NCBI RefSeq assembly: GCF_013282725.1
Contig: NZ_CP054043.1
Span: forward strand, 3,348,001-3,412,000
Direction of reading: 5' to 3'
DNA from: Yersinia mollaretii ATCC 43969
GTDB lineage: Bacteria > Pseudomonadota > Gammaproteobacteria > Enterobacterales > Enterobacteriaceae
DNA: 64,000 nt
Shown piece after piece: positions 44,313-64,000 of this stretch. Within the stretch, counting starts at the first letter, position 1; every line of letters begins with the position of its first letter. The position numbers and the translations under genes are program-made. Under the pieces are notes generated by a model. It saw nothing but the letters and a program-made list of their open reading frames with translations, ran no database searches and was not told where the DNA came from.

Positions 44313-44929
44313 GTCAATTTTTTTATATTCACCCAGAAAATCCGCAACCGCGCTTAATCAACCAAAGTGTTGATGTGCTGCGCAAGGGCGGCGTGGTGGT
44401 TTATCCGACAGATTCGGGTTATGCCCTTGGCTGTCGTTTAGAAGACAAAACAGCAATGGAACGTATATGTCGCATTCGTCAGTTGGATGGCAATCATAAC
44501 TTCACCTTGGTGTGCCGTGATTTGTCTGAGCTATCGACCTATGCTTATGTGGATAACTCGGCGTTTCGACTGATCAAAAATAATACCCCCGGCAACTACA
44601 CCTTTATCTTGAAGGCGACAAAAGAAGTGCCTCGGCGTTTGATGAATGATAAACGTAAAACCATTGGTTTGCGTGTGCCGTCTAACCCGATAGCGCTGGC
44701 ATTGCTGGATGTCTTAGGCGAGCCGTTGATGTCAACCACACTGATGTTGCCGGGCAATGACTTTGCCGAGTCTGATCCCGAAGAGATTAAAGATCATCTG
44801 GGCAAGCAAGTGGATTTAATTATCCATGGCGGCTCATTGGGCCAGCAACCGACCACAGTGATTGATCTGACTGACTCTTCCCCAGAAGTGATCCGTGAAG
44901 GTGCGGGTGACGCCACGCCGTTCCGCTAA
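44309..44929 (+). CDS. yciO: YciO, Sua5/YrdC-family protein
   Basis: 206-residue YrdC-fold protein (MSQFFYIHPENPQPRLINQS), with GGVVVYPTDSGYALGC, MERICRIRQLDGNHNFTL and KRKTIGLRVPSNPIALALL. The related YrdC/TsaC makes the threonylcarbamoyl-AMP used in tRNA t6A; YciO has weak activity of this type. Translationally coupled to rnm. In E. coli the yciQ-rluB-btuR genes follow; here accessory DNA begins. Confidence 0.96.
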   Translation: MSQFFYIHPENPQPRLINQSVDVLRKGGVVVYPTDSGYALGCRLEDKTAMERICRIRQLDGNHNFTLVCRDLSELSTYAYVDNSAFRLIKNNTPGNYTFILKATKEVPRRLMNDKRKTIGLRVPSNPIALALLDVLGEPLMSTTLMLPGNDFAESDPEEIKDHLGKQVDLIIHGGSLGQQPTTVIDLTDSSPEVIREGAGDATPFR

Positions 44930-46151: not shown

Positions 46152-49100
46152 ATGAATCAAGTATTTAAAGTCATTTGGAATAGTGCCTTAGGTCGCTATG
46201 ATGTTGCATCAGAGTTTTCCAAGTCGGGTAAAAAAACTAAGTCATTCTGTTCAGGAACTGTCGGCCTAACTTCCTCTGTGGCGGCACCTTTGCGTTTAAG
46301 CCAAATTGCGATGACGTTGATTTTGACGTTAGGTGCAGGTTCAGCATTCGCCGCCGATATCACGGTTCCCGTTTTCACGCCTGTCGTTAATTTTGAGCAA
46401 ACCTTTACTGGCACAGGCAATACCTTGTCGGGGAGCTTTAGTAACATTGCTCGCGGAGCCAATGGTTTTACCAATATGAAGCTAGGCGATATCCCATCAG
46501 ATAAATTCCTTAATGGTGGTGAGAATCTCCTCAGTAAGAACATTTTCAACTTAGGTTCGATGGTCACTGAAACCTTCCTTGACCCGAAAGGCACTGGCGC
46601 ATTAATTACCATTAATGTGTATAGCAATGAAAACATGTCAGTTAAACCGCTTGCCGATTTTTCGGTGCCGGTTTCTCACTCGGTGGGTGAGAATGGTCAG
46701 TATGTGAATCGCAACTTATTCCATGTACTGGATGGCAGTGACCTGAGTGTTAATGTCGGTAGCACGGGCGCGGGTTGGGCTAATGACAACAATAACTATT
46801 TTAATGCCATTCTTAAAGGTGGCCTGAAAAGTGAAGCGGCGGTAACGACCTCTTCAGGATTCTATGTTGACTCTACGACATCGGCTCAGGATACCGTCTT
46901 AAATTATAACTCCAAGACCGTGGTCAACTTGGGTAATAATAGTAATAACCTTCGTGACAGCAATACCTCAGTGGCTAATGCGGTGCTTGATAACTTTACT
47001 GGCGCATTCACTAGCACTTATTTGGGTGCGCAAAATGTTCAAAATTTTGCTGATTTCCAGAAATATAACCAAGACCTAATCAATGCGATTAAGAGTGGCG
47101 CTATTACACTGAGCAGTGCCGCTTATCAGGCAGAGCTGGCGAAAGCCTATTTCACCAATGGCAGCAATAGCTCACCTAAAGTTACTCCTATCTATCTTGA
47201 TATGGGCATTGACCCTAATGATGCTGTAAACCATTTCGTTGATTCTGATCGTGTCGCCTTTATTCATGGTGATGGTCAGCATGCTATTGTGAATATTGGT
47301 ACTGATGCCAATATTCAAGCTTATAACACCGATATTTCGGTGGTACGTCTGCAAGATGGTGCCACCTTGAATAATGCCGGGACCATAGGTTCAGCCGCCG
47401 CAACGGTTCGTGGCACTAATCTTATTTTTGCGACTGATAGTACGGTGGTGATTGAAAGCACTGGGGTTCTGGATGCCGGGACTAGCGCTGAAATGCTGGA
47501 TTTCAAATCGACACCGACCGCTGTAATCGTTGCCAATGGCAGTCATACCGCTATTTTGGCGAATGGTACTTCATCAGTGACCAACCATGGCGTGATTAAT
47601 ACCGCGTCTCGTGGGACAAGTGCTTATACGCAAGCGGCCATCATTGATGGCAACTCCTCCTTCGTCAATAACGGCGCAATTAATATCGCGGCCACTGTCG
47701 ATTACTCTCCTGCGGCAGGGTATGTAAACGAAGGGGTCAGTGTTCAGAAAGGCTCTAGTTTCGAAAATAATGGCACTGTCTATGTAGGCCGACAAGCCCA
47801 GCGTTCAGTGACTGATGTGGTCACTGATCTGGCCATTAAGACCCAGTCTTATGCCGTCAGATTACTACAAGATACGGTTAATCTGAGCAACATCGTCACT
47901 TTTACCAATAGTGCGACCGGTAAAATTGTCATTGGCAGCAAAACTGAAAACTCTATCGCTGTTGATGCACAAGGAGTGAGAACGGCTGTCAATCAGAACG
48001 GCACTATCGAGTTGAACGGCGCGGGTGCAACGCCGGGCGAAAAATCAGCGCAGAATATTGGTATTTTATCCCGTTATAGCGCCACCAATATCTTTAACAA
48101 TGGCGATATCATTATCAATGGTATCAACACCGTTGGTATTAAAGTGCTGACCAACAGTGCCGCGACTAACGCCGGTAAAGTTTATGTGAATAATGGGCTT
48201 GATGCTGCGACCAATTTGGCCAACTACGGTATTCAAGCGGTGGGTGTGGACGCTGTGGCTAATATTTCCGGTCAGGTTTATCTGGCTGGCGATGGGGCTA
48301 TTGGTGTGGTGGCGGAAGATAAAGGCACCATTAATGTCAGCGGCACGGGTCAGGTTGAATTTGTCTCCGGCAAAAAGCAGGTGGGCTACCTGATTTACGG
48401 CACTGGCTCTAGCATCAATAACATCGCCACCGGTGATGAAACAGTTTCAACTGAAGGCTCTACCTTGTATCGCGTTGATAAGGGAGCCAGCTTTACCGGA
48501 ACCACGGCTTCGACCATGAATGCCACCGGTAAAGATTCTTCTCTTATTCAGGTCGCCGGTGTTGGTAGTACATTTAACTCCGGTGCCTTAGATATGGTGC
48601 TCTCGGGCGAGGGTTCCACTGGCGTGAAAGTGGAAGGTGGCGCTTCAGGCACTATCACCGCCAACGCCAGTTTAGAATTGAGCGGTGACGGCGCGACGGC
48701 CGGTATCGTCGATGGCAACTATTACGGTCTGGATGGTATTGCGACGGGTGCCACCGGAAAATCTGTGCTGACCAGTTCGGCGGTCTTGAGCACCGGTAAC
48801 ACGGCCTCAGGCGCTTACGGGTATATTGCCCGTAACGGCGGTGAGCTAGTGCATAAAGGCACCATTGATTTCACTCAGACAGGCAGTACGGGTGTGCTGG
48901 TAGATGGCGGTATTCTGACCAACGAGAACCTCATTACTGTAAATGGTACTGCGGTGAATATTCAGGGCGCTAACTCTACCGTGAATAATACCGGTACGGT
49001 TAACGCGACAGACGGTACGGCTGCTTACTTGCTGGGTGCGGGGGCCAGTTTGACCTTATCCGGTAGCGGCGAAACCAAAGCGGGCGGCACTGCACATGGC

Positions 49101-52100
49101 GTACTGCTCGATACAGATGCCATCGCACTGACCGTAGATGGCGCGACCATCACCATGACGCCGGGCGGCAGCGGTAATGCCATTGAAAACAAAGCGGAAA
49201 TCGAAGGTATTCAGTTAAAAGATACCACGCTGACTGTTGGCAATGGCGCGGGTGTTCGTACCGGGGCCTCTATGGCGGCGACCAATTCCGGCGTGATTAA
49301 TGTCAATGGCAGCGGCACCGGTATTCTGTTTGCCAATACTGGCGATACCATAACTAATAACACGCTGGACATGTCCGACTCGGCAGGTTTGGTCATCAAC
49401 GTCAATTCAGCCGATGGCAAAGGGATTGTGACTAACTCTAGCCAGAACCTGAAAACGGGCGCGAGTGTCAATGTTAAGAATGCCGCTGGTGGTGCAGCAC
49501 TGATTGTCAGTGGTACTACGGCGCAAGTTGAGCAGTCCGGTAATCTGATCTCTGAGTCACTGAACAATCCGGTTGTCGATATCGATAATGGTTTTGTAAA
49601 CAGCTTCGTCAACAGTGGCACCATTCAGGCCAACAGTGCGCTACAGCAAGCGGTGATCACCACCAGCGGTAATGGTGTGGCCTTTACCAACGCCACCGAT
49701 GGCAAGATTGTTGGCAAAGTGGATCTCTTAGCGGGCAACAACACCGTGACCCTGATGCAAGGCAGTGAAGGTACTGATTTCACTACGGGCAGCGGTGACG
49801 ACCTGTTTATTCTGCAAGATCTCACATTAGCCGATACGGGCGTGTTCAGTTCACTGAACGGCGGCACGGGCACCGACACCCTGCGCTTTGACCACTCGAT
49901 TTATACCCTGAGTGATGCTAATGCCATCACTAATATGGATTACATCGACCTGATTAATAACTCCACGTTTACACTGGAAAATATCTTGCTGGCGCTGGGC
50001 GATAGCCAAGATGATAGCGCGGACACTGGTTTCAACTTGGGTGATGGCAGCTTGTTGCAGCTCAATAACCAGAATGCCGTGAGCTTTAATAATAAGTTGA
50101 ATGGCCTTGGCACGATGGCGGTTAACACTGCGGGTAATGCCTTTGATTTTACTGCCAATGCGGCACAAAACGCCTTTAATGGGGTACTGGCCTTGGGCCA
50201 CGCGACCTTTGAACTGGCGCTGGATAACACGGCTGCATTAGTGGATGCCACTCTGAAATTGGGCGCGGATAGCATCACCACGATAGGTGAAGGGGTCCAG
50301 ACCATCGGTGGATTAGTGTTTGATGGCGGGACAGCGAAGTTTGATACCGGGACTCCGGGCGAGACTGTTGCCAAAGGCTCCATTCACACCACTAATGAGA
50401 TGGATCTGCGCGGTGCTGGCACGGTAGAAGTGAATATCGGCAGCATCGATAACAGTCAGAATCAGGTCAATCCTCTGCTGCCTATCCTTGAGCAGGATGA
50501 CACCAATACCCAGTTACAACTGGCGAGCAGTGATACCACTGTGGTGGGTAACGGTGGCAATCTGGTGCTGAAAGACCAGAACGGCAATGTCATTAGCGAT
50601 GCGGTCACGGCAGATATTGCTCAGGGCGGCACGACGGTGGCGAAAGGGACTTACGATTATCGCCTGACCAGTGGTGTGGATAACGACGGTCTGTATGTCG
50701 GCTACGGCCTGACTGAAGTTGAACTGCTGGGCAGCGGCACGGATGCGTTGTCTCTGTATGCCACGAATAAGACCGGCAATGCTGCAGATTTGAGTGCCAA
50801 AGTGACCGGTAGCGGTGATTTGGCGATTGATACAGGTGCTGGCAGCACTGTGTCACTCTCTAACCTGAACAACGATTACACCGGTATGACTGATGTGCGC
50901 AACGGCTCCTTGCAGATGCTGAATGATAATGTGCTGGGGAATACCTCACTGTTATCTTTGGCAGCGAATACCGCCTTTAACATGAACGGCCACAGTCAAA
51001 CCGTGGGCGAACTGAACAGTGCTGCAGGTTCATCGGTCAATCTCAATGGTGGTAGCTTAACCTTGAGTCAAGGTGGTCTGTCCGAGGGTGAATTAACCGG
51101 CAGCGGTGAGTTGACGATTGCCGCAGATACCTTGACGGTGAACGGCGCGAACAACACGCTGACGGCTACCACGACCATTGCCAGCGGTGCGCAAGCCTTG
51201 CTGAACAGTGCCGTCGGTCTGGGCAGTGGCAATATTGTCAACGCCGGTTTGCTGACACTGAAAGGTGCGGCGGGTCAGTTAGCGAACGCCATCAGCGATG
51301 CCGGCAGTGTGGTGCTGGAAGATAACAGCGACATCACATTAAGCGGTAATAACAGCTTGTTCAGTGGTTTGTTTGATATCACAGGCGGCAGCCAGTTAAC
51401 CGCCTCTCAGGCGGACCATCTGGGCACCGCAGCGGTCACCAATGAGGGTTCGTTGGTGCTCAATAGTGCGAGTGACTGGTTGCTGGCAAACAGCATTACT
51501 GGCAGCGGCACCTTGACTAAAAACGGCAGCGGTACTGTGTCATTGACCCAAACTGCCGCCTATACCGGTCAGACGGATATCAATGCAGGCGGCCTGATCT
51601 TAGGCAGCAGTGCCGACCCAATGACACTGGCAAGCCAGCAAGTCAATATCGCTGATGGTGCCTTTATGGGCGGCTTCGGTGGGGTGGCAGGAGCGATTGA
51701 TAACAAGGGCGTGTTGTTTGTGGGCAACCCAACGGCATCTACCTCGTCGGTCTCTGGCCGTCTGGCTCCGGCCAGTAACATCTTCACCGTGGGTACGGAT
51801 TTAACCAACAGCGGCACGGTATTTATCGGTAACAAGACCAGTGATGGTAGCGGCACCACAGGTAACCAATTAGTGGTCAATGGCAACTATGTGGGTGACA
51901 ACGGTCTGCTGCATTTCAACACCGCACTGGGTGATGACAACTCTGCGACCGACAGCATGATTGTGAACGGTAACACCAGCGGTACCACCAACGTCAGCGT
52001 GGATAATGCGGGCGGTCTGGGGGCTAAGACCTTGAACGGGATTGAATTGATTCAGGTGAATGGTCAGTCAGACGGTGATTTCGTGCAGAGTGGCCGTATC

Positions 52101-53195
52101 GTGGCGGGTGCCTATGATTACAGTCTGAAACGGGGCGCGGGCCAGAATGCCGCTAACTGGTATCTGACCAGTCTGAGCAATGATCCGGTGAATCCGGGCA
52201 CACCAGATGATCTGGGTGAAGAAGATAAACGCCCTGAAGCGGGCAGCTATACCGCTAACTTGGCCTCAGCCAACAACATGTTTGTCACTCGTCTGCACGA
52301 TCGTTTGGGCGAAACACAATATATTGACGTGCTGACGGGTGAGCAGAAAGTCACCAGCATGTGGTTGCGTAACGAAGGCGGTCATAACCGTTCACGTGAT
52401 ACCAGCGGTCAGTTGAAAACGCAAAGCAACCGTTATGTGATGCAATTGGGTGGTGATATCGCCCAGTGGAGCAACAATGGTCTGGACCGTTTACATCTGG
52501 GTGTGATGGCCGGTTACGGTAATAGTAAGAGCGACACCAATGCACGTACAGGCTATAAGTCAAAAGGCTCGGTTGATGGTTACAGCACCGGTGTTTACAG
52601 CACCTGGTACGCCAATGACGAAGACAAGTCTGGCCTGTATGTTGATGGATGGGCGCAGTACAGCTGGTTTAACAACACAGTACAGGGCGAAGGTCTGGCG
52701 ACTGAAGAGTATAAATCCAAAGGGATCACGGCCTCGGTAGAGAGCGGCTACACCTTTAAAATCGGTGAGAATAAGTCGAAGAACGAAACTTACTTTATCC
52801 AGCCGAAAGCACAAGTCACTTGGATGGGTGTCAAGGCAGATGATCACACTGAAGCTAATGGTACGCAAGTGAGTGGGCAGGGCGACGGCAATATCCAGAC
52901 ACGTCTGGGGCTGCGTTCTTATATGAAAGGCCATCACGAAAGTGATAATGGCAAGGATCGCGAGTTCCAACCGTTTGTGGAAGCCAACTGGATCCACAAC
53001 ACCAAAGATTTTGGCACCAATATGAACGCGGTTGAAGTGAAGCAGGCTGGCGCGAAGAATATTGGCGAGCTGAAAGTGGGTGTTGAGGGGCAGTTGAATA
53101 AGCAACTGAATGTCTGGGGCAATGTGGGTCAGCAACTGGGTGATAAAGGTTATAGTGATACCGCAGTGATGTTAGGGGTGAAATACAACTTCTAA
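46152..53195 (+). CDS. Giant type V autotransporter (AIDA-like)
   Basis: 2347-residue monomeric autotransporter. Residues 1-30 form an extended signal peptide (ESPR: MNQVFKVIWNSALGRYDVAS). The hydrophobic signal ends at GSAFA (about 67). The passenger (about 68-2050) is a Gly/Asn/Thr/Ser-rich beta-helix of short repeats such as VNNTGTVN and NSGTI. It includes an acidic segment TGSGDDLFILQDL near 1212 and an autotransporter-associated repeat GSGTLTKNGSGTVSLTQTAA near 1785. The C-terminal beta-barrel (about 2065-2347) has MWLRNEGGHNRSRD and ends VMLGVKYNF with terminal Phe. It is intact, with no frameshift. Likely adhesin or biofilm factor; receptor unknown. GC is higher than in its flanks. Confidence 0.93.
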   Translation: MNQVFKVIWNSALGRYDVASEFSKSGKKTKSFCSGTVGLTSSVAAPLRLSQIAMTLILTLGAGSAFAADITVPVFTPVVNFEQTFTGTGNTLSGSFSNIARGANGFTNMKLGDIPSDKFLNGGENLLSKNIFNLGSMVTETFLDPKGTGALITINVYSNENMSVKPLADFSVPVSHSVGENGQYVNRNLFHVLDGSDLSVNVGSTGAGWANDNNNYFNAILKGGLKSEAAVTTSSGFYVDSTTSAQDTVLNYNSKTVVNLGNNSNNLRDSNTSVANAVLDNFTGAFTSTYLGAQNVQNFADFQKYNQDLINAIKSGAITLSSAAYQAELAKAYFTNGSNSSPKVTPIYLDMGIDPNDAVNHFVDSDRVAFIHGDGQHAIVNIGTDANIQAYNTDISVVRLQDGATLNNAGTIGSAAATVRGTNLIFATDSTVVIESTGVLDAGTSAEMLDFKSTPTAVIVANGSHTAILANGTSSVTNHGVINTASRGTSAYTQAAIIDGNSSFVNNGAINIAATVDYSPAAGYVNEGVSVQKGSSFENNGTVYVGRQAQRSVTDVVTDLAIKTQSYAVRLLQDTVNLSNIVTFTNSATGKIVIGSKTENSIAVDAQGVRTAVNQNGTIELNGAGATPGEKSAQNIGILSRYSATNIFNNGDIIINGINTVGIKVLTNSAATNAGKVYVNNGLDAATNLANYGIQAVGVDAVANISGQVYLAGDGAIGVVAEDKGTINVSGTGQVEFVSGKKQVGYLIYGTGSSINNIATGDETVSTEGSTLYRVDKGASFTGTTASTMNATGKDSSLIQVAGVGSTFNSGALDMVLSGEGSTGVKVEGGASGTITANASLELSGDGATAGIVDGNYYGLDGIATGATGKSVLTSSAVLSTGNTASGAYGYIARNGGELVHKGTIDFTQTGSTGVLVDGGILTNENLITVNGTAVNIQGANSTVNNTGTVNATDGTAAYLLGAGASLTLSGSGETKAGGTAHGVLLDTDAIALTVDGATITMTPGGSGNAIENKAEIEGIQLKDTTLTVGNGAGVRTGASMAATNSGVINVNGSGTGILFANTGDTITNNTLDMSDSAGLVINVNSADGKGIVTNSSQNLKTGASVNVKNAAGGAALIVSGTTAQVEQSGNLISESLNNPVVDIDNGFVNSFVNSGTIQANSALQQAVITTSGNGVAFTNATDGKIVGKVDLLAGNNTVTLMQGSEGTDFTTGSGDDLFILQDLTLADTGVFSSLNGGTGTDTLRFDHSIYTLSDANAITNMDYIDLINNSTFTLENILLALGDSQDDSADTGFNLGDGSLLQLNNQNAVSFNNKLNGLGTMAVNTAGNAFDFTANAAQNAFNGVLALGHATFELALDNTAALVDATLKLGADSITTIGEGVQTIGGLVFDGGTAKFDTGTPGETVAKGSIHTTNEMDLRGAGTVEVNIGSIDNSQNQVNPLLPILEQDDTNTQLQLASSDTTVVGNGGNLVLKDQNGNVISDAVTADIAQGGTTVAKGTYDYRLTSGVDNDGLYVGYGLTEVELLGSGTDALSLYATNKTGNAADLSAKVTGSGDLAIDTGAGSTVSLSNLNNDYTGMTDVRNGSLQMLNDNVLGNTSLLSLAANTAFNMNGHSQTVGELNSAAGSSVNLNGGSLTLSQGGLSEGELTGSGELTIAADTLTVNGANNTLTATTTIASGAQALLNSAVGLGSGNIVNAGLLTLKGAAGQLANAISDAGSVVLEDNSDITLSGNNSLFSGLFDITGGSQLTASQADHLGTAAVTNEGSLVLNSASDWLLANSITGSGTLTKNGSGTVSLTQTAAYTGQTDINAGGLILGSSADPMTLASQQVNIADGAFMGGFGGVAGAIDNKGVLFVGNPTASTSSVSGRLAPASNIFTVGTDLTNSGTVFIGNKTSDGSGTTGNQLVVNGNYVGDNGLLHFNTALGDDNSATDSMIVNGNTSGTTNVSVDNAGGLGAKTLNGIELIQVNGQSDGDFVQSGRIVAGAYDYSLKRGAGQNAANWYLTSLSNDPVNPGTPDDLGEEDKRPEAGSYTANLASANNMFVTRLHDRLGETQYIDVLTGEQKVTSMWLRNEGGHNRSRDTSGQLKTQSNRYVMQLGGDIAQWSNNGLDRLHLGVMAGYGNSKSDTNARTGYKSKGSVDGYSTGVYSTWYANDEDKSGLYVDGWAQYSWFNNTVQGEGLATEEYKSKGITASVESGYTFKIGENKSKNETYFIQPKAQVTWMGVKADDHTEANGTQVSGQGDGNIQTRLGLRSYMKGHHESDNGKDREFQPFVEANWIHNTKDFGTNMNAVEVKQAGAKNIGELKVGVEGQLNKQLNVWGNVGQQLGDKGYSDTAVMLGVKYNF

Positions 53196-53309: not shown

Positions 53310-53936
53310 ATGAGAGTTATGGTGGTTAGTGATTGTAATTTAACAACATTCTCATTGGAAATCATCATCAAAGAAACAAAGATAGTGGCGAGTGAAATAG
53401 TCGATATCAATGTCGAAAAATATCACACAGTAGATGATGAGAATATATATATTAAATCAGATGTGCGAAGTGTCATTATTCTCGATGTTGATAATATTCC
53501 GCCATCCAAGGTATTTAATACCATTAGCCAAATAAGGTCATCGAACCCTTTTTCTTTCGTGATGGTTTTTTGCAGAAAACATGAAGACACTGAGGATTTT
53601 ACTTATCTCTCCATTTTATCAGATGGGATTTTATGTAAAACAGCATCCGTAGATAAGATTAAGGCCATGATAATTAAGTTAATATCTTCATGTAAAACGC
53701 CTAAGGAATTTGATCGGCTTGACCTGACAAGTCAACTCAAATCGCAGCTAACACACCGAGAGAATGAAGTGCTTGAATGTATTCTACTCGGGTTAAGAAA
53801 TACCGATATATCAAGACGACTTGATATGAAAAGCAAAACAGCCAGCGCCCATAGGCGAAATATATATAATAAATTAGGGGTTAAAACGATCAACGAGATA
53901 CTCAGAACGCTACTGGCACCTCAATGTATTGATTAG
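53310..53936 (+). CDS. LuxR/NarL-type regulator with degenerate receiver
   Basis: 208-residue protein. Residues 1-125 resemble a receiver domain in pattern (MRVMVVSDCNLTTFSLEIII, SVIILDVDNIPP with Asp at the expected place) but lack the usual acidic pocket and flanking motifs, so phosphorylation is doubtful. Residues about 145-205 form a clear LuxR HTH (LTHRENEVLECILLGLRNTD, SKTASAHRRNIYNKLGVKT). AT-rich, like Fim/Mat-type regulators next to surface genes. It lies 115 bp after the autotransporter on the same strand, with an AAAAGGAAC ribosome site. It probably regulates the autotransporter (inference). Confidence 0.82.
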   Translation: MRVMVVSDCNLTTFSLEIIIKETKIVASEIVDINVEKYHTVDDENIYIKSDVRSVIILDVDNIPPSKVFNTISQIRSSNPFSFVMVFCRKHEDTEDFTYLSILSDGILCKTASVDKIKAMIIKLISSCKTPKEFDRLDLTSQLKSQLTHRENEVLECILLGLRNTDISRRLDMKSKTASAHRRNIYNKLGVKTINEILRTLLAPQCID

Positions 53937-54773
53937 TCCCTGATGTTGATGTTCAGCCGATATTGATGATTCTTAATACAGCAAAGTAAAACTTTCTGAC
54001 GACGGAAAGGGGGATGAGACACTTTTTGAATCCCTGACTGTGAAATTAGTGTAATATACACGGTCACGAACCAGCTTGTGGGGCCTTCTGCGCGATGTTC
54101 AGCGCACCATGCTGTGTTCCAAAATGTATTACAATCAATGAGTTCTGCTTGATTGTGAGCTTAACTTATTGATTACAATATATAACACGACGCCTGTGAA
54201 GGCGAGCAAGGCCTATTTTTATTGTATTAAAAACAATAAGTTATAGGCCTTCTATTCTAGAGTATTACTTTCGGTGTGACACAACTGATCCTCAGTCCTA
54301 TCACCATCTTTTAGTACACTCTCATTTTAAGGCTGCTTCATAGGCGTGTAATTGTATGGGGGTAGGGAGGAACGCCTGTTGATATCATTCCCCTTCACAT
54401 AACCCACTGATAAACAAAAATAATTAAATTTAATCAGATACATAGTCACAATTTCTTATGTTCTTCATAAGACACTCTTGCCAATGATTTACAATGGTGT
54501 ATAATTAAGAGATGTGAGTTATGATTTTTGCAACATTTAAGGATTTTTTATTGCGTCGCATCTAAAGGCCTTACTTGTTGGGGTTCCTTCTCTTATCTAG
54601 CATCCTTAGCTTTCACAGTCCCTCACTCAGTATGTTGTTTTTACGGGTTATTAAATAATATCCTCTCTTCCTCGTGCTCTGTGTATTTACACTCTGTTTT
54701 GTCTTTCTGCTATCTGGATTCTAACCATCGAGTTGGTTGGGTTTTCTTTTGTTTTCTACTTTGGGGTATTTTG
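53937..54773. other. Region before the HUH protein gene
   Basis: About 840 bp of AT-rich DNA. Contains the hairpin CGCC-TGTGAA-GGCG (54191-54204) and the inverted repeat at 54208-54251. The frame of the next gene stays open upstream to about 54528, but that segment is Cys/Phe/Ser-rich, lacks a ribosome site and does not look like protein. It probably marks the left part of the mobile island. Confidence 0.45.
54208..54251. repeat. Inverted repeat AAGGCCTA...TAGGCCTT
   Basis: AAGGCCTA (54208-54215) and TAGGCCTT (54244-54251) pair, and inside them TTATTGT and ACAATAA pair again, to give a stem of about 17 bp with one bulge. No T-run follows. Candidate replication or recombination site of the element, or a terminator of the regulator gene. 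Confidence 0.45.
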
Positions 54774-55445
54774 ATGGCTAATGTTTTATCGAGGGGAAAG
54801 GGGCGCTCTACGCTTCTTCATAGTGGTGCGTATTTGCACAACTCATTGAGTTACAGTGTTAACTACGGTACAGGCTGTAAATGTTCACCACTCTATATTG
54901 AGATCTTAGATAAATTTACCAATGAAATTAATGCTATGCGTAGTTGCTATAACCGTACATATGCGTTCAGATTTGACTTACACATACCTGAAGGAATGAG
55001 TGTTGATGAATCTAACTCTCTGATCAGTGAGCTATTTTCTAAGTTAAGGGACAAATTCAAATCTAAGCAATGGGATAATCAGCCGATTAAAAAGTTTGCT
55101 TACGGGTGGGTATGGGAACTTGAAACCGTCAAACAAGTACATTATCACCTATGGATTGCACTACCCGGGAATCAGGTGCAAAACACGGGTCATGTTGATT
55201 ACGGGATGTTTCAGATAATAAATGACTTGTGGCTAAAGCTCACTAAAGGCTTGGGGAGTGCTCACTTGGCTAAGAATCCGTATATGATTAAACGAAGCGA
55301 TGACAAAGAATTAAAGAAGTTCGTTTATCGAATATCTTATCTAGCCAAGGACAGAGGTAAGTATTCTGAGGGGGACAAAACCAAACGTTTTGATGGTTCC
55401 AGACTCTTTGGTAAACTGGCTACCACGAGCATTGAGAAGCATTGA
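54774..55445 (+). CDS. YagK/YfjJ (inovirus Gp2-like) HUH replication protein
   Basis: 223-residue protein from ATG 54774 (MANVLSRGKGRSTLLHSG), with TTGGGG about 8 nt upstream. It resembles the YagK/YfjJ C-terminal family found in E. coli prophages and inovirus Gp2. Residues 116-130 contain WELETVKQVHYHLWIALPG: H123-Y-H125 fits an HUH metal motif. Downstream, Y189-LA-K192 in RISYLAKD fits the catalytic YxxK of rolling-circle initiators. So a nicking role in replication of a small mobile element is plausible (inference from motifs). A further in-frame stretch upstream is rejected as non-coding. Confidence 0.78.
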   Translation: MANVLSRGKGRSTLLHSGAYLHNSLSYSVNYGTGCKCSPLYIEILDKFTNEINAMRSCYNRTYAFRFDLHIPEGMSVDESNSLISELFSKLRDKFKSKQWDNQPIKKFAYGWVWELETVKQVHYHLWIALPGNQVQNTGHVDYGMFQIINDLWLKLTKGLGSAHLAKNPYMIKRSDDKELKKFVYRISYLAKDRGKYSEGDKTKRFDGSRLFGKLATTSIEKH

Positions 55446-55674: not shown

Positions 55675-56244
55675 TCAACTTAAAGCCATTTCCTTCTTAA
55701 TACGGAACACCGTGGCACGCCCACATTCGCATAGCTTAGCAATCTCATCAGCGGATAACTGGCTATTTGTAAGGTAGCTCTTTACCCGAGTATGTAACTC
55801 TTCATCTCTTGCTTTACCTTTGAATACCCCACCTTTCGCTTTAGCGATTGCTATACCTTCCTGCTGGCGCTGGCGGATGAAGCTACGTTCTAGTTCACCC
55901 ACAGCTCCCAGCATAGTGATCATAAACTTGCTGGTGGGGCTATCATCAAACATCATAGAGTTGTCTAAAAAATAAACAGATACACCCTCGGTCGTCAATT
56001 CCTCCAACAATGATAAAAGGTCTTTTGTATTACGAGCTAATCGATCTACTGATTTAACTGTAACCTTATCACCCGCACGGACTTTGTTTAGGAGCTTTTG
56101 AAGTTCAGGGCGTTCAGTATTCTTACCACTGACTTTATCAATGAATAAACACTGTTCTTCTATGCCTGCGTTCTGCAATGCTTCAACTTGCCTACTCACA
56201 TTTTGATCTTTACTGCTAACACGCACATATCCAAAAGAAGCCAT
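55675..56244 (-). CDS. Serine recombinase (resolvase/invertase)
   Basis: 189-residue small serine recombinase. The N-terminal catalytic domain has nucleophile Ser10 in MASFGYVRVSSKDQN, the KSVDRLARNTKDLL arginine motif (about 66-79) and GAVGELERSFIRQRQQEG at the E-helix. The C-terminal part (about 150-189) is a helix-turn-helix (LSADEIAKLCECGRATVFRI). ATG 56244 is used; a GTG two codons upstream lacks support. A perfect palindrome lies 31 bp upstream. It may resolve or invert a segment of the island. Confidence 0.92.
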   Translation of the reverse strand: MASFGYVRVSSKDQNVSRQVEALQNAGIEEQCLFIDKVSGKNTERPELQKLLNKVRAGDKVTVKSVDRLARNTKDLLSLLEELTTEGVSVYFLDNSMMFDDSPTSKFMITMLGAVGELERSFIRQRQQEGIAIAKAKGGVFKGKARDEELHTRVKSYLTNSQLSADEIAKLCECGRATVFRIKKEMALS

Positions 56245-56274
56245 AACCACCTCAAGTCTCGTTAACGTGGATTA

Positions 56275-56556: not shown

Positions 56557-57585
56557 CTATTTATCTTCAGGTTCAAGAGCTGACTTGATTACAGGTATGA
56601 GTGACTCCCCTTTACGTATACCGAGACTTAATTCGGTCGGAAGTTGTTCGACTGCAATCAGTGTGCTGCTATCCACGATGATAGTTTGGTCATTTAGAAC
56701 CGCGTATGATGGGTACCACTTAAGGGCATCTTTATCCCATTCATAGGTTAACAGTCGCGCTGGTTTTCCTCGGTCTTTAAAATTACTTATCAATTGTGCA
56801 GCTTGTGCTGCTGCTTTTGGTAGTGCTTCATGTGCCGCATAGTGAAGTTTCACGTCCTTTCCTCGAAAAAGAAATGACACCTGACAGTCATTTTGATAAG
56901 AGCTTACGTCGAGCAGTGGATTTCGCCTGTCAGCTAATTTTGAAAGTAATTTACGGAGCCATTCATGGATCGCTGTATAAGTTCGTTTACCAGCCTCAGA
57001 AGCAACAGATGTAACGTAGGGATTCCAGACAATTGCTAGATATCCAATACCAATCCTAATCAACTCAAGTTCGGCGTCTGCTGCGTTGTGTGAAAGCTCT
57101 GTATATTCTATCGGTAGCGGGCAGTCATTGATAACTTGGGCCAGCCATGCTGCATCAACTTCTCTTGGGTCTGTTGCAAACTCAATTTGTTCTCCATCCG
57201 GCAACAGTGGGAGCATTTTAGGCGATGATACGAATGCTTTTTGAACAAAGTCTAAGCTGCTAAATTCAACGACACTTTTACCCGAATATAAACCCAAAAC
57301 AGCAGCAACAAACTTTGTACCATCCTTGCTCTCAAAGCATTCACTTTCAAGAACATAGCCTTTTGGTTTTCCTGGATCATGATTGTGTAAGAGAATGAAT
57401 GGATCCATGTTGATTTTTGCCACAAGGTTTACGGGATCTTCGTTGACTAATAGTTCACCATCGTTTCCTCGTGCATCTGTCCAGATAACAGCCGGTACAA
57501 TTTTTCCATAAATACCATTAGCATGGCGTTGTATTGCCTTTTTCACCCAATCTCGTGCAGAGGGCGTATTTAACAGTTCAGACAT
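56557..57585 (-). CDS. 342-residue protein of unknown function
   Basis: Soluble protein without signal or membrane segment. The N-terminal part (about 20-110) contains DPFILLHNHDPGKPKGYVLE followed by DGTKFVAAVLGLYSG. The HDP-x2-P-x-G stretch before a GLY turn recalls phage prohead-protease-like domains, a weak resemblance only. The middle has SFLFRGKDVKLHYAAHEALP and the C-terminus LNDQTIIVDSSTLIAVEQLP. Start MSELLNTPSARDWVKKAIQR has weak ribosome support. It stands alone on the minus strand between the recombinase and the Gabija genes. I do not recognise the family; defence or phage function is possible by location only. Confidence 0.7.
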   Translation of the reverse strand: MSELLNTPSARDWVKKAIQRHANGIYGKIVPAVIWTDARGNDGELLVNEDPVNLVAKINMDPFILLHNHDPGKPKGYVLESECFESKDGTKFVAAVLGLYSGKSVVEFSSLDFVQKAFVSSPKMLPLLPDGEQIEFATDPREVDAAWLAQVINDCPLPIEYTELSHNAADAELELIRIGIGYLAIVWNPYVTSVASEAGKRTYTAIHEWLRKLLSKLADRRNPLLDVSSYQNDCQVSFLFRGKDVKLHYAAHEALPKAAAQAAQLISNFKDRGKPARLLTYEWDKDALKWYPSYAVLNDQTIIVDSSTLIAVEQLPTELSLGIRKGESLIPVIKSALEPEDK

Positions 57586-58225
57586 AGCTTTTCCCGTATG
57601 ATGGTACCTTAAGAGGTAATTGTAGCATCAGTCTGGGTTAATAATTGGTACTGAGATTTAGTTCCAATTGTATCTTAGCTAAAGTCATCAGGGACGGTAT
57701 TTATGTATTTAAGAAGGATACTTTTGTTGTTTTGGGTGAAAAATTTTAGATAGGTTTTTGAGCAGTAGTAACGTTGCTCAACTTACAGTTTCTCTAATGT
57801 TTAATAAACCGATAAACGATCATGATTTTAAGATTTTCGGCAAAATCTTATCCCCCAGAGTGTCGAGCAGTAAGCCCCAGTAATGACGCAGTTTGTGAGC
57901 CTTTCGTAACAATTCGCCCCCAAGTTATCCACACAATTTAGCGATCTTGTTCACTTGCCAAAAGTCTCAATACTCACTATCTTGTGACTTGCTATAGGGG
58001 TTTGCACTATATGTAGTGTTCCTTCGGGGCGCAACAGTGTTCTCTAGGCAACAAAAAGCCGAACCCACAATGTGAATTCGGCTTCCGAGAAGCATGACTC
58101 GCGATGAGTTTCGAGACTCACAGCTAATCGCTAGCTTCTACTTCCTTACTTTAGTCAGTTGGATTGTAGTCAGCTTCGACGGGTCATGTAAACCTACTTT
58201 TACCCAAAAGGGTGAGGAAGAGTAC
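57586..58225. other. Island spacer with hairpins
   Basis: 640 bp without a recognised gene. Holds one DnaA-box-like TTATCCACA (57925-57933), the terminator-like hairpin at 58056-58084 and a short hairpin TGAGT-TTCGAG-ACTCA near 58106. An open frame runs from 58094 into the next gene but has no ribosome site there. Confidence 0.45.
58052..58084 (-). terminator. Terminator-like hairpin on the minus strand
   Basis: AAGCCGAA (58056-58063) and TTCGGCTT (58077-58084) pair perfectly. On the minus strand the stem is followed by TTTTTGTT. No minus-strand gene is seen upstream of it for several kb, so it may end a non-coding transcript or an antisense leader. Confidence 0.5.
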
Positions 58226-58501
58226 ATGGCAATTTGTCAAGATATGCATCGTTATTGGAGTTTATTGGCGGGTCTACCTGATGATCAAGGTGGAGTAGGT
58301 CGCCATAAGTGCTGTGGTTGCGCTTATGAACAGGGGTATAACGCTGGTTTTGCTCGTAGTGGGCATATTTGGGTTAACCTCGATTCGTTGCATCAGAGTC
58401 AAGCGGGGGTTGTTCGTCATAAAAGTCCTCACGCCGCATATGCGAAAGGATATCACGACGGTATGTTGGCTTCTTACAATCAGTCTTCATTGGCTGGTTA
58501 A
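58226..58501 (+). CDS. 91-residue protein with internal duplication
   Basis: ATG 58226 has GAGGAAGAG upstream and gives MAICQDMHRYWSLLAGLPDD. The rest holds two copies of a motif: GRHKCCGCAYEQGYNAGFA and VRHKSPHAAYAKGYHDGMLA (pattern RHK-x-x-x-x-AY-x-x-GY-x-x-G). The first copy has three Cys and the second has His in place, so metal binding is possible. A longer in-frame start at 58094 is open but unsupported. It is 60 bp before the next small gene. Family not recognised. Confidence 0.6.
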   Translation: MAICQDMHRYWSLLAGLPDDQGGVGRHKCCGCAYEQGYNAGFARSGHIWVNLDSLHQSQAGVVRHKSPHAAYAKGYHDGMLASYNQSSLAG

Positions 58502-59249: not shown

Positions 59250-60977
59250 ATGCCGATGGTTCGCCACTTAGAAATAGAGAACTTCCGTTCCATAAAAAAG
59301 TTAGTTTGGTGTCCTTCTCCCGGATTGAACTGTCTGATCGGCACTGGGGACTCAGGGAAATCGACAATATTAGACGCCATTGATCTCTGTCTTGGTGCAA
59401 GAAGGTCTTACTCTTTTAATGATGCTGATTTCTTCAAATCGAATGTCAATTCGCCAATCATAATTAGTGTTACACTTGGTAAGCTGGATGACGAATTGTT
59501 GAGCATTGAAAAGTACGGATTATTTCACCGTTCTTTTAATTCAGTGAATAACGAAATATATGATGAACCACAACCCAATATGGAGACGGTTCTAACTATC
59601 AAGATGTCAGTTGACGCAGATTTGGAACCAGATTGGCGCTTGTACTCAGTAAGGGCTGATGCGGATGGAATCGAGCGACGGCTCCCATGGAAACATCGAG
59701 AACTAATATCTCCCGCACGGTTAGGAACGACGTCTTACAATAACCTCGCTTGGGGTAGTCGTTCAGTTCTCAATAGGCTTTCGGAAGATACTTTTGATGT
59801 TTCCTCAGTTCTGGCGCAATTAGGTAGGCAAACTCGTCAAGCCTTTGCAACTGAACAAATTTTAGGAGTAACAAAGGTTCTTGAGCAAGTAGAGACAATT
59901 GGAAATAATCTTGGCGTCCCATTAGAGGGAGTAAAAGCATTATTAGATGTGAATGGATTATCTTTATCTAGTGGTGCAATAAGCCTTCATAACAATAATG
60001 ATACCCCACTCAGACAGCTTGGTACGGGTTCATCTCGACTTCTTATTAGTGGTATTCAAAAAGCCACTAGTCGTTCAACTATGCTTATTGTTGACGAAGC
60101 TGAATATGGTCTTGAACCGTACCGTATTACTAGGCTGCTCCATGAGCTGGGTTCTAAAGATACTGAACCAACAAAACAAGTTTTTATTACAACTCATTCA
60201 CCACACGTACTTCGTGAACTGCAAGCCAATCAGCTTCATGTGCTCCGCCCTATAGTGCTACCCCCACCAAATATTCCCCCAATTCTAAATCCTGCTTCAC
60301 ATATCGTATACCACCTTCAAGGTGGAGATAACCAACAGGCAACGTTGAGGGTATGTGCAGAAGCCTTTTTGAGTAAAAAAGTAATTGTATGTGAAGGAAA
60401 AACAGAAGTTGGGCTAGTTAGAGGGATAGACTTATATTGTAGTGATAAGCATGCTACGACTATAAACTCTAAAGGAGTGTATTGTGCCGATGGTGGTGGA
60501 GACAATATGTATTCCCGAGCTAAAGTATTTGCTTCTTTAGGATACCCAACCGCTATTTTCAAAGATTCAGATAAAGCCACCATACACCAACCGTTAACCG
60601 CAGAAGTAAACGCGCTTGGAATAAATGTTTTCGAGTGGAATGATAATAATGCAACAGAGGATGCCTTATTTAAAGCATGTCCACCAAATCTGATTTCCCA
60701 ATTATTAGATATAGCAATTGAACGGAAAGGGGAGGACGCTGTACGAGCCGGAATTCTGGCGTGCTCAGAAAATAGAATTAATTTAGATCATTGTAGAAAC
60801 AACTTTGATGATTCGTACCGAGTTATACTAGCAAAAGCGGCAAATAAGAAGAGTTGGTATAAAGACATAGAACCAGCCGAAAGTATTTTTTACCGTGTTG
60901 TATCACCTAATTACGAAAATTTTAGTGTGGTTCTAACTGCAACCGTTGCTTCACTTTTTTCTTGGGCATCCCAGTAA
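59250..60977 (+). CDS. gajA: Gabija protein GajA (OLD-family ATPase/TOPRIM nuclease)
   Basis: 575-residue protein; GajA is a nucleotide-sensing DNA endonuclease that assembles with GajB against phage. The N-terminal ABC-type ATPase has Walker A LIGTGDSGKST (residues 29-39, Lys37), signature-like LGTGSSRLLIS, Walker B MLIVDEAEYGLEP (D282-E283) and His switch FITTHSPH (H316). The C-terminal TOPRIM has KKVIVCEGKTEVG (E382, E386) and IFKDSDKA (D439, D441). Length matches described GajA (about 578). AAGGA precedes the ATG. The helicase gene follows after 10 bp. Family OLD is certain; Gabija follows from the pair. Confidence 0.9.
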   Translation: MPMVRHLEIENFRSIKKLVWCPSPGLNCLIGTGDSGKSTILDAIDLCLGARRSYSFNDADFFKSNVNSPIIISVTLGKLDDELLSIEKYGLFHRSFNSVNNEIYDEPQPNMETVLTIKMSVDADLEPDWRLYSVRADADGIERRLPWKHRELISPARLGTTSYNNLAWGSRSVLNRLSEDTFDVSSVLAQLGRQTRQAFATEQILGVTKVLEQVETIGNNLGVPLEGVKALLDVNGLSLSSGAISLHNNNDTPLRQLGTGSSRLLISGIQKATSRSTMLIVDEAEYGLEPYRITRLLHELGSKDTEPTKQVFITTHSPHVLRELQANQLHVLRPIVLPPPNIPPILNPASHIVYHLQGGDNQQATLRVCAEAFLSKKVIVCEGKTEVGLVRGIDLYCSDKHATTINSKGVYCADGGGDNMYSRAKVFASLGYPTAIFKDSDKATIHQPLTAEVNALGINVFEWNDNNATEDALFKACPPNLISQLLDIAIERKGEDAVRAGILACSENRINLDHCRNNFDDSYRVILAKAANKKSWYKDIEPAESIFYRVVSPNYENFSVVLTATVASLFSWASQ

Positions 60978-60987
60978 GGACTACGAC

Positions 60988-62409
60988 ATGATGCTTGATG
61001 AGGTAATTGAATGTAACATAGGCTCAGTCGTTGCCCCTGCGGGGTGTGGGAAAACCCAACTGATTATTGATATCTTAAGTATTAAACAGTCAAAGCCATA
61101 TTTAGTCTTAACGCATACAACTGCTGGGGTGTCCGCCCTGAAGAGGCGTCTTCGTAATCTCAAAGTACCCGCTGAAAATTACGTAGTGACAACTATCGAT
61201 GGCTGGAGTCTTAGGATAGCTAACAGCTTTCCACGTTCTTGTCCTATTCAATACTCAATGGATAATGAACGTCTTTTTTATCCGGAACTTCGTCAAGTTG
61301 TGCTTCATTTTCTCAATACAGGCGCATTGAATCAGATAGTAAAGGCAAGTTATTCAAAGCTATTTGTCGATGAATATCAAGACTGTAACTCAGAACAACA
61401 CGCTATGGTTGTTTCACTTTCGTCAATTGTTCCCACAGTTGTTTTTGGTGATCCAATGCAATGCATTTTTGATTTTCGTAATGCTGTAATGCCAAACTGG
61501 GAGTCAGATGTCCAGCGTATTTTCCCTCTGATTGGCACCTTGAATACACCATGGCGATGGAATAATGCGAAAGCGGCGCAACTCGGGCTATGGGTTTTAG
61601 AAGCACGTGAGCTTTTAAAGCAAAACAAAACTATAGATTTACTGACATGTCCTAACCATATATTTTGGCATACTTTGACAGGGAACACTCAAATAGACCT
61701 TACAAATCAACGTCATGAACAACATTCTATTTTGAACCGTTTCCCAACAGACTCTTTACTAGTGATTGGTAGTTCAGTGAATGAGCTATCGCGACATAAA
61801 TATGCTCAAGGCTCCTCCCGTATTGAAGTCGTCGAGAAAGTGAGTTTGGAAACTGTAATAGCCGCAGCCCGTCAATTTGATTTACTCCACGGACAAGCTC
61901 TTGTCGATGCAATTTTGCAAGTTGCATCGACAATGCTGACAAATGTTGAAATACCGCAAACAACTAGACGGATAGAAACAATTCTTAGTGGTCGAAGTAG
62001 ATCCCCTGTTACTCTTTCAGAGCAGGCGTTTTGCAATATCGTTGCAAATAGTTCGCGTCATAATATTCTAGCTGCCCTTCAACAGTTAGAGTTAAAACAA
62101 GGTACCCGTCTATATAGAAGATCAGCGTATACCGCTTTAAAGGATACAATTTCTCTCTCTATAAGCGTTCCAGAAAAGACAATATCTGAAGCTGCATCTA
62201 TTGTCCGCGAGCGAGTACGTCAAGAAGGCGATAGAAGAATCCCAAACAGAGCTATAGGTTCCACTTTGTTGCTTAAAGGTCTTGAAGCTGATCACTGCCT
62301 AATCCTTGATGCACAAGGCCAAGGTATGAATGCAAGACATCTATACGTAGCACTTTCTCGAGGAGCTAAAACAGTAACTATATTCTCGAAGTACCAACAT
62401 ATTGGTTAG
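60988..62409 (+). CDS. gajB: Gabija protein GajB (UvrD-like helicase)
   Basis: 473-residue superfamily 1 helicase from ATG 60988 (MMLDEVIECNIGS), with AAGGA 8 nt upstream. An earlier TTG at 60946 would overlap gajA and is less likely. Walker A VAPAGCGKTQLI (Lys22), motif II LFVDEYQDCNS (D128-E129), motif III VVFGDPMQCIFD (Q158), NTPWRWNN motif IV-like, and motif VI LYVALSRGAKTV (R458). It lacks large 1B/2B insertions, as GajB does. In Gabija it binds DNA ends exposed by GajA and helps activate it. Usual length about 494. Confidence 0.9.
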   Translation: MMLDEVIECNIGSVVAPAGCGKTQLIIDILSIKQSKPYLVLTHTTAGVSALKRRLRNLKVPAENYVVTTIDGWSLRIANSFPRSCPIQYSMDNERLFYPELRQVVLHFLNTGALNQIVKASYSKLFVDEYQDCNSEQHAMVVSLSSIVPTVVFGDPMQCIFDFRNAVMPNWESDVQRIFPLIGTLNTPWRWNNAKAAQLGLWVLEARELLKQNKTIDLLTCPNHIFWHTLTGNTQIDLTNQRHEQHSILNRFPTDSLLVIGSSVNELSRHKYAQGSSRIEVVEKVSLETVIAAARQFDLLHGQALVDAILQVASTMLTNVEIPQTTRRIETILSGRSRSPVTLSEQAFCNIVANSSRHNILAALQQLELKQGTRLYRRSAYTALKDTISLSISVPEKTISEAASIVRERVRQEGDRRIPNRAIGSTLLLKGLEADHCLILDAQGQGMNARHLYVALSRGAKTVTIFSKYQHIG

Positions 62410-62508: not shown

Positions 62509-62760
62509 TTACTTTTCCTGATTTTGATTCCAGTTCTCCCACCATTTACCTATATCATCGACCACATCTAATAAGCCACCAGATGACTTCTGGATATCAT
62601 TAAGTTGATCAATCTGACCTTGAAAAGTAGTTGCGTAATTGTCTGCTTGAATTCTTTTAGCTGCTTTTACATCACCTCTCCTAAAGTCAATTAAACCACT
62701 TCCTACCATAGCCCCTAAGATGACAACTAGGATAATGCCTTTTATCAGTATTTTCTTCAT
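62509..62760 (-). CDS. Small membrane-anchored protein, unknown
   Basis: 83-residue protein: Lys-rich start and one N-terminal membrane helix (GIILVVILGAMVGSGLI, residues 8-24), then a polar region with DVKAAKRIQADNYATTFQGQ and a Trp/Asn tail (KWWENWNQNQEK). Probably inner membrane with a periplasmic tail. Convergent with gajB. Family not recognised. Confidence 0.55.
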   Translation of the reverse strand: MKKILIKGIILVVILGAMVGSGLIDFRRGDVKAAKRIQADNYATTFQGQIDQLNDIQKSSGGLLDVVDDIGKWWENWNQNQEK

Positions 62761-63311: not shown

Positions 63312-64000
63312 TTAAACGCTATCAATACAATCAACTACCGGTAGTAAGTCTTTTATTGTTGGGGGGTGGGCATATATATCAGTCATCCCTAAATTACGAG
63401 TTCGGCTATGCCCTACAACAAATTGAATTAATGCAACGTTAGCAATAACAGTTATAGCTTTGCTGATGAATGTATGACGTAGACTATGAATGCGTCGTTT
63501 TAGCCCAGACTCATCATGATCAGGAATCTCAAGTTCTCTCATTACGCTCACCCATAGATTAGTAGTAGTTGTGTAATCCGGTAAATCGCTAAAAATCTGA
63601 TCACTATGGGATAAGGTTTCAATCCGTTTTAATAATGCTTCCTCTATAGATTTATGGATCGGAACATTCCGTTTTGCGTGTTTTGTCTTACCACCTTTGA
63701 TGGATATATAATAACGACCGGTATCGTCATTTTGTTTTATACTTTCTTTACGGATATCGGCTATTTCGCCACGGCGAGCGCCAGTATAGATTAGAGTAAG
63801 GAAATACAATTTCCGCCGATCATTATAAGGTAATTCATTGAGATAACTTTTGAGTTTGATCATTTCTTTAGCGCTATAGTATCCACCTCTGTTCGATGTA
63901 ACTTCATAATTGATACCCTCAGTAGGAGACTTTAAAAGGATGTCTTTCTGGCCTACCAGATAGGTACTGAGCAACGAGCGCCAAATTTTGAGGTGTTTAT
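63312..64000 (-). CDS. Tyrosine-type site-specific integrase, N-terminus outside window
   Basis: The frame is open from base 64000 to the stop at 63312, 229 codons of a larger protein. It shows the core-binding region end (HLKIWRSLLSTYLVGQKD) and the full catalytic domain: Arg I in YTGARRGEIADI, Lys in GGKTKHAKRNVPIH, HSLRHTFIS (His-x-x-Arg), FVVGHSRTRN (His) and nucleophile Tyr in MTDIYAHPP. All catalytic residues are present. It should catalyse integration and excision of the island. The attachment site is probably beyond the right edge. Confidence 0.93.
   Translation of the reverse strand, partial: KHLKIWRSLLSTYLVGQKDILLKSPTEGINYEVTSNRGGYYSAKEMIKLKSYLNELPYNDRRKLYFLTLIYTGARRGEIADIRKESIKQNDDTGRYYISIKGGKTKHAKRNVPIHKSIEEALLKRIETLSHSDQIFSDLPDYTTTTNLWVSVMRELEIPDHDESGLKRRIHSLRHTFISKAITVIANVALIQFVVGHSRTRNLGMTDIYAHPPTIKDLLPVVDCIDSV

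Follow-up and report, generated by a model that had tools for sequence, protein, structure and literature searches.

A gajA-gajB operon, very probably a Gabija anti-phage system, on an integrative island upstream of rluB in Yersinia mollaretii

Do two adjoining genes in the chromosome of Yersinia mollaretii ATCC 43969 form a Gabija anti-phage system, and do they travel as the cargo of a mobile island? The question is raised by a stretch of 64,000 nucleotides (RefSeq assembly GCF_013282725.1, contig NZ_CP054043.1, positions 3,348,001 to 3,412,000 of the forward strand; here, the window), in which an original prediction had recognized an OLD-type ATPase gene followed by a helicase gene, named gajA and gajB below. 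Our analysis indicates that a chromosomal integrative island carries this pair, which is very probably a Gabija (class 2 OLD) system against phages. It is ordinary in kind, though a sequence-divergent example of a known defense system; what is new here is the exact position of the island ends, the rluB site, and the distance of this lineage from characterized Gabija systems.

Assignment of the gene pair

The gajA gene (positions 59250 to 60977, plus strand) begins with an ATG closely preceded by an AAGGA stretch, has its stop at 60977, and encodes an OLD-family ABC ATPase of 575 amino acids with a TOPRIM nuclease domain. The gajB gene (60988 to 62409, plus strand) encodes a superfamily 1 (SF1) UvrD-like helicase/ATPase of 473 amino acids; 10 nucleotides, read directly from the sequence, separate the TAA of gajA from its ATG, which is preceded by the string TAAGGA, and its open frame could begin earlier, at a TTG at 60946. 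Both proteins match the PADLOC profiles of Gabija over their full length (E < 1e-160, which excludes chance). GajA scores 713 bits against PDLC04168 (residues 1 to 574, profile positions 1 to 568 of 570) and GajB scores 564 bits against PDLC04173 (residues 5 to 472, profile positions 5 to 467 of 471), with other OLD-family models scoring about a tenth. PDLC04168 also matches all 38 members of alignment A1 (window GajA and 37 of its best 120 relatives) at E ≤ 1e-3, but because 24 other listed models, Old and AriA included, match all 38 equally, this count is unspecific and the scores alone separate the models. Pfam recognizes AAA, OLD-like TOPRIM, and UvrD domains across the pair, and all NCBIfam matches to the pair are below their cutoffs. 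The proposed two-gene Gabija identity is thus upheld by end-to-end profile matches together with gene order and catalytic residues, and we regard membership of the pair in Gabija as highly probable.

Residues were assessed in an alignment of 42 sequences, composed of the window protein and its counterparts from 41 of 43 loci of the genome collection, with identity down to about 40%. The Walker A, Walker B, His switch, and TOPRIM residues of GajA were found where they had been placed, at K37, D282/E283, H316, E382, E386, D439, and D441 by sequence and alignment. E382, E386, D439, D441, E470, D282, E283, and H316 are invariant (42/42), so that the nuclease residues are intact as predicted, and K37 and K538 are each present in 41 sequences and replaced by a gap in the remaining one. 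The GajB strings APAGCGKT (residues 16 to 23), DEYQD (128 to 132), GDPMQ (154 to 158), LLLKGLE (427 to 433), and YVALSRG (453 to 459) are those that we take to be motifs I, II, III, a V-like motif, and VI, respectively. Seven of the eight residues of APAGCGKT are kept in 42/42 sequences and the remaining one, C20, in 41/42; DEYQD is complete in all 42, as are G154, D155, P156, and Q158. Within motif VI, Y453, V454, A455, and R458 occur in 42/42 and G459 in 41/42, while L456 and S457 are variable. The claim that motifs I, II, III, and VI are intact therefore stands.

In structure comparison the whole chain of the window protein has a GajA-type fold, and the comparison for the ATPase ends in a tie between class 1 OLD and GajA. 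The fold of GajB is UvrD-like; that no GajB entry is among the best 50 fold matches listed is not counterevidence to membership, and a PDB sequence search with GajB gave matches solely to GajB. The sizes of about 578 and 494 residues that had been quoted for Gabija equal those of the Bacillus GajA and GajB chains in the PDB matches.

Relation to characterized systems and proposed activity

Gabija of Bacillus cereus VD045 (PDB 8SM3, 8JQB, and 8TJY) shares with the window pair the order of ABC ATPase and TOPRIM domains, the whole-length GajA fold, the K/H/E/E/D/D/K residues, and an adjoining UvrD-like helicase of similar size, whereas the two GajA proteins are only 16 to 17% identical in structural alignment. 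For the Bacillus protein, the available text of PMC10822852 names E379, E383, D432, D434, D511, D513, and K541 as catalytic. Matched by order and spacing, not by coordinates, E379, E383, D432, D434, and K541 correspond to E382, E386, D439, D441, and K538 in the window, whereas the D511/D513 pair has no evident counterpart, the window protein being variable across the alignment at its own residues 511 and 513. The invariant E470 may be a candidate for this role. Much closer are the members of the GajAB lineage defined by PDLC04168 and PDLC04173, found in Shewanella, Aeromonas, Vibrio, Photobacterium, Leclercia, and Morganella, which have the same gene order and, in A1, GajA proteins 58 to 84% identical to that of the window; more remote members of the PDLC04168 lineage go down to 40%. 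Since the lineage is so distant from the solved Bacillus Gabija, a member of it would tell whether the rules found in Bacillus and Pseudomonas hold generally.

Because the lineage is only 16 to 17% identical to the solved Bacillus GajA, we infer activity from the intact residues, and the system is likely active in its host, as had been proposed. In the excerpts available, work on Bacillus describes a tetramer of GajA associated with dimers of GajB, a TOPRIM domain that cleaves DNA, and an inhibitory effect of nucleotides (PMC10781630, PMC8136825, and PMC10822852), and work on Pseudomonas describes a Gabija system acting on linear, RecBCD-free DNA (PMC12407980). Applying these published results to the window pair, we would expect GajB to dock on a tetramer of GajA, in which the TOPRIM domain would cut invading DNA under the control of the nucleotide-sensing ABC ATPase domain and GajB would hydrolyze ATP on meeting DNA ends; the complex would thus target linear phage DNA whose ends are unoccupied by RecBCD. 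Judged by titles, a literature search for Gabija and Yersinia returned no paper on this operon.

Three other explanations have to be weighed, of which the first concerns function. The pair might be a class 2 OLD nuclease and helicase that mainly protects or maintains the island, by plasmid or element exclusion or by DNA repair. Its location in a mobile island is consistent with this, as are the plasmid-borne relatives (317 of 72,556 plasmid records have a GajA match at E ≤ 1e-5; 201 are classified as conjugative, and Klebsiella is foremost at 189), and our search found no phage assay of a lineage member. Yet the pair agrees with Gabija in its profile matches, its gene order, and its catalytic residues, phage protection is documented in the literature excerpts at hand for the systems of Bacillus, Pseudomonas, and Providencia, and the targeting of plasmids is compatible with phage defense, which leaves island maintenance as a very improbable main role. 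The Providencia case is that of P. stuartii, whose Gabija blocked T4 in Escherichia coli and whose GajA has 736 amino acids, unlike the 575 of the window protein (PMC12935923, as excerpted). It is also conceivable, if unlikely, that the operon, although its sequence is intact, is not expressed or not active in this host. In a consensus scan the island had 21 promoter-like sites, fewer than the mean of 28.8 for shuffled sequence, and for one Vibrio cholerae Gabija the accessible part of PMC11559045 reports only a minor role against its phages; on the other side, neither frame is interrupted, each gene follows a stretch that resembles a ribosome-binding site, and those catalytic residues that were tested are kept.

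The ATPase could, finally, belong to another OLD-containing system (a solitary class 1 OLD, AriA of PARIS, or a retron effector), to which the fold tie with class 1 OLD and secondary PADLOC scores (Old, 79 bits; AriA, 67 bits) would lend some color. GajB, for its part, has a weak PADLOC match (36 bits) to RTasHel, the helicase model of a reverse-transcriptase system. These Old and AriA scores are about one-tenth of the GajA score, however, and a helicase partner exists here and in 41 of the 43 related loci, whereas class 1 OLD genes such as that of Thermus scotoductus (6P74) are described as solitary, lacking a helicase gene, in the available portion of PMC10568477. Furthermore, no reverse transcriptase or AriB model of PADLOC matched among the eight window open reading frames (ORFs) scanned, and the island has no Rfam match. 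Such a membership is extremely improbable; because partner gene and profile scores speak against them, the class 1 OLD, PARIS, and retron assignments were rejected.

Relatives of the Gabija proteins are numerous. Among 7,998 scored candidates each, the protein searches returned at least 1,534 relatives of GajA at E ≤ 0.001 and at least 1,743 relatives of GajB, and alignment A2 took in 26 of the best 120 of the latter; the closest other GajB among the matches listed, from Yersinia enterocolitica, is 96% identical. In the genome collection, gajB directly follows gajA on the same strand in 41 of 43 loci, with a spacing that ranges from overlap to less than 80 bases, and the remaining two (L046 and L047) hold a GajA fragment alone, at a contig end. 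GajB is present in one of 25 genomes of the genus, the window's own, and GajA (E ≤ 1e-80) in five of 394 genomes of the order, its own counted, one of the five being a fragment with two stops. DNA similarity to the operon was found in 7 of 5,426 E. coli genomes, none spanning 80% of it. No GajA match occurred in 50,697 phage records and IMG/VR gave only three partial matches (29 to 40% identity), for which reason a phage origin of GajA was rejected.

The island and its rluB site

The prediction that the pair travels as mobile-island cargo is supported by the boundaries. The island is 10,881 bp long, measured from start to start of two 19-bp direct repeats, and lies upstream of rluB; the left repeat is at 54187 to 54205 on the plus strand, and the right one is directly before rluB at positions 13068 to 13086 of L003, outside the window. 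The original prediction named as neighbors a recombinase, an HUH protein, an integrase, and small ORFs. A replication-like protein of YagK/YfjJ type, which contains an H-Y-H string, is encoded at 54774 to 55445 on the plus strand (Pfam, 54 bits), if its start is the ATG at 54774 in a frame that extends to a TTG at 54528, and a serine recombinase/invertase-like protein of 191 amino acids at 55675 to 56250 on the minus strand (Pfam Resolvase, 143 bits; PHROG DNA invertase, 197 bits). The C-terminal part of a tyrosine integrase gene occupies 63312 to 64000 on the minus strand (Pfam Phage_integrase, 47 bits), the whole gene, for 559 amino acids, being at L003 11312 to 12991. As the repeat and the gene suggest, the island would spread through recombination by this integrase between the 19-bp repeat and the site before rluB.

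rluB was found by high-identity match in 24 of 25 genus genomes (own counted), and the repeat core precedes it in all 24, with one copy at that position in each of the 23 others. The gap between yciO and rluB (window position 44929 to L003 13103) is a variable spot in the genus, as short as a few hundred bases and as long as 33.3 kb. It was compared whole in 19 other genomes; outside this comparison are G023, which has the two genes on separate contigs, and G020 and G002, both of which lack a close yciO and the latter a close rluB as well. The gap is compact in 8 of the 19 (239 to 371 bases measured in five, yciO located close by in three) and 3.0 to 33.3 kb long in the other 11; it is 20.2 kb in the window's genome. 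The distance between the two genes is 243 bases in G018 and 423 in G009, and each of these loci has a single repeat core. None of the 19 gaps has a match to gajA or gajB. On the yciO side, outside the island, much of the gap is taken up by an autotransporter-like gene for 2,347 amino acids (46152 to 53195) and a LuxR-type regulator gene (53310 to 53936); 9 of the 19 genomes have, in the corresponding position, a relative of the autotransporter that aligns over its full length.

A second repeat copy exists in one of the 19 gaps, that of G010, where it flanks a related island (L127 152 to 14596) that lacks gajAB. Its integrase, YfjJ-type protein, and serine recombinase are 49, 80, and 97% identical to those of the window island, and among its cargo are a lipase-like gene beside a Tli4-type immunity gene and a gene for a protein whose HNH part is similar to type IV restriction enzymes (77 bits). 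Because the two islands share their end genes and differ in cargo, we infer that the ends may be a backbone and the middle exchangeable. The analysis provides an exactly bounded defense island with an attachment site conserved in the genus, and the yciO-rluB gap is therefore a place to seek further cargo. A narrow literature search for rluB-targeting islands gave no result, which says little. More speculative, and unlikely, is the proposal that the GajAB lineage, mainly from Proteobacteria here, is a separate Gabija type, differing from the Bacillus type in its trigger or cutting chemistry (E470 in place of D511/D513) and spread partly by a hitherto undescribed family of rluB-targeting islands with exchangeable cargo.

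Relatives of the integrase (E ≤ 1e-60) were found in 11 of 295 genomes of the family, own counted. Four of the five that are at least 49% identical adjoin rluB with the repeat core, and the fifth (L135) adjoins yciO without a core; the six that are at most 41% identical are in short loci without rluB. Leclercia sp. 29361 has a 33%-identical integrase (L008 3042 to 4628) and, at a distance of about 5 kb from it, another gajAB pair.

Three further genes accompany the pair. A conserved 342-amino-acid cargo protein is encoded at 56557 to 57585 on the minus strand and has 258 relatives at E ≤ 0.001, many of them in Proteobacteria; like the 83-amino-acid ORF with a hydrophobic N terminus (62509 to 62760, minus strand), it is unmatched in PADLOC, Pfam, NCBIfam, and PHROG. 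The 135-amino-acid ORF at 58094 to 58501 on the plus strand resembles a phage protein family that has no assigned function (PHROG 3941, 82.5 bits). By tblastn, these neighbors, found on the rluB island, are unmatched in the other GajAB loci, among which many are truncated, and so we do not propose a third conserved component. Terminator-like sites in the island are about as frequent as in shuffled sequence (9 versus a mean of 8.2). By eye, the stretches to the left of the two repeats (53990 to 54186 and L003 12900 to 13067) resemble each other in short shared strings, perhaps the scar of an earlier island.
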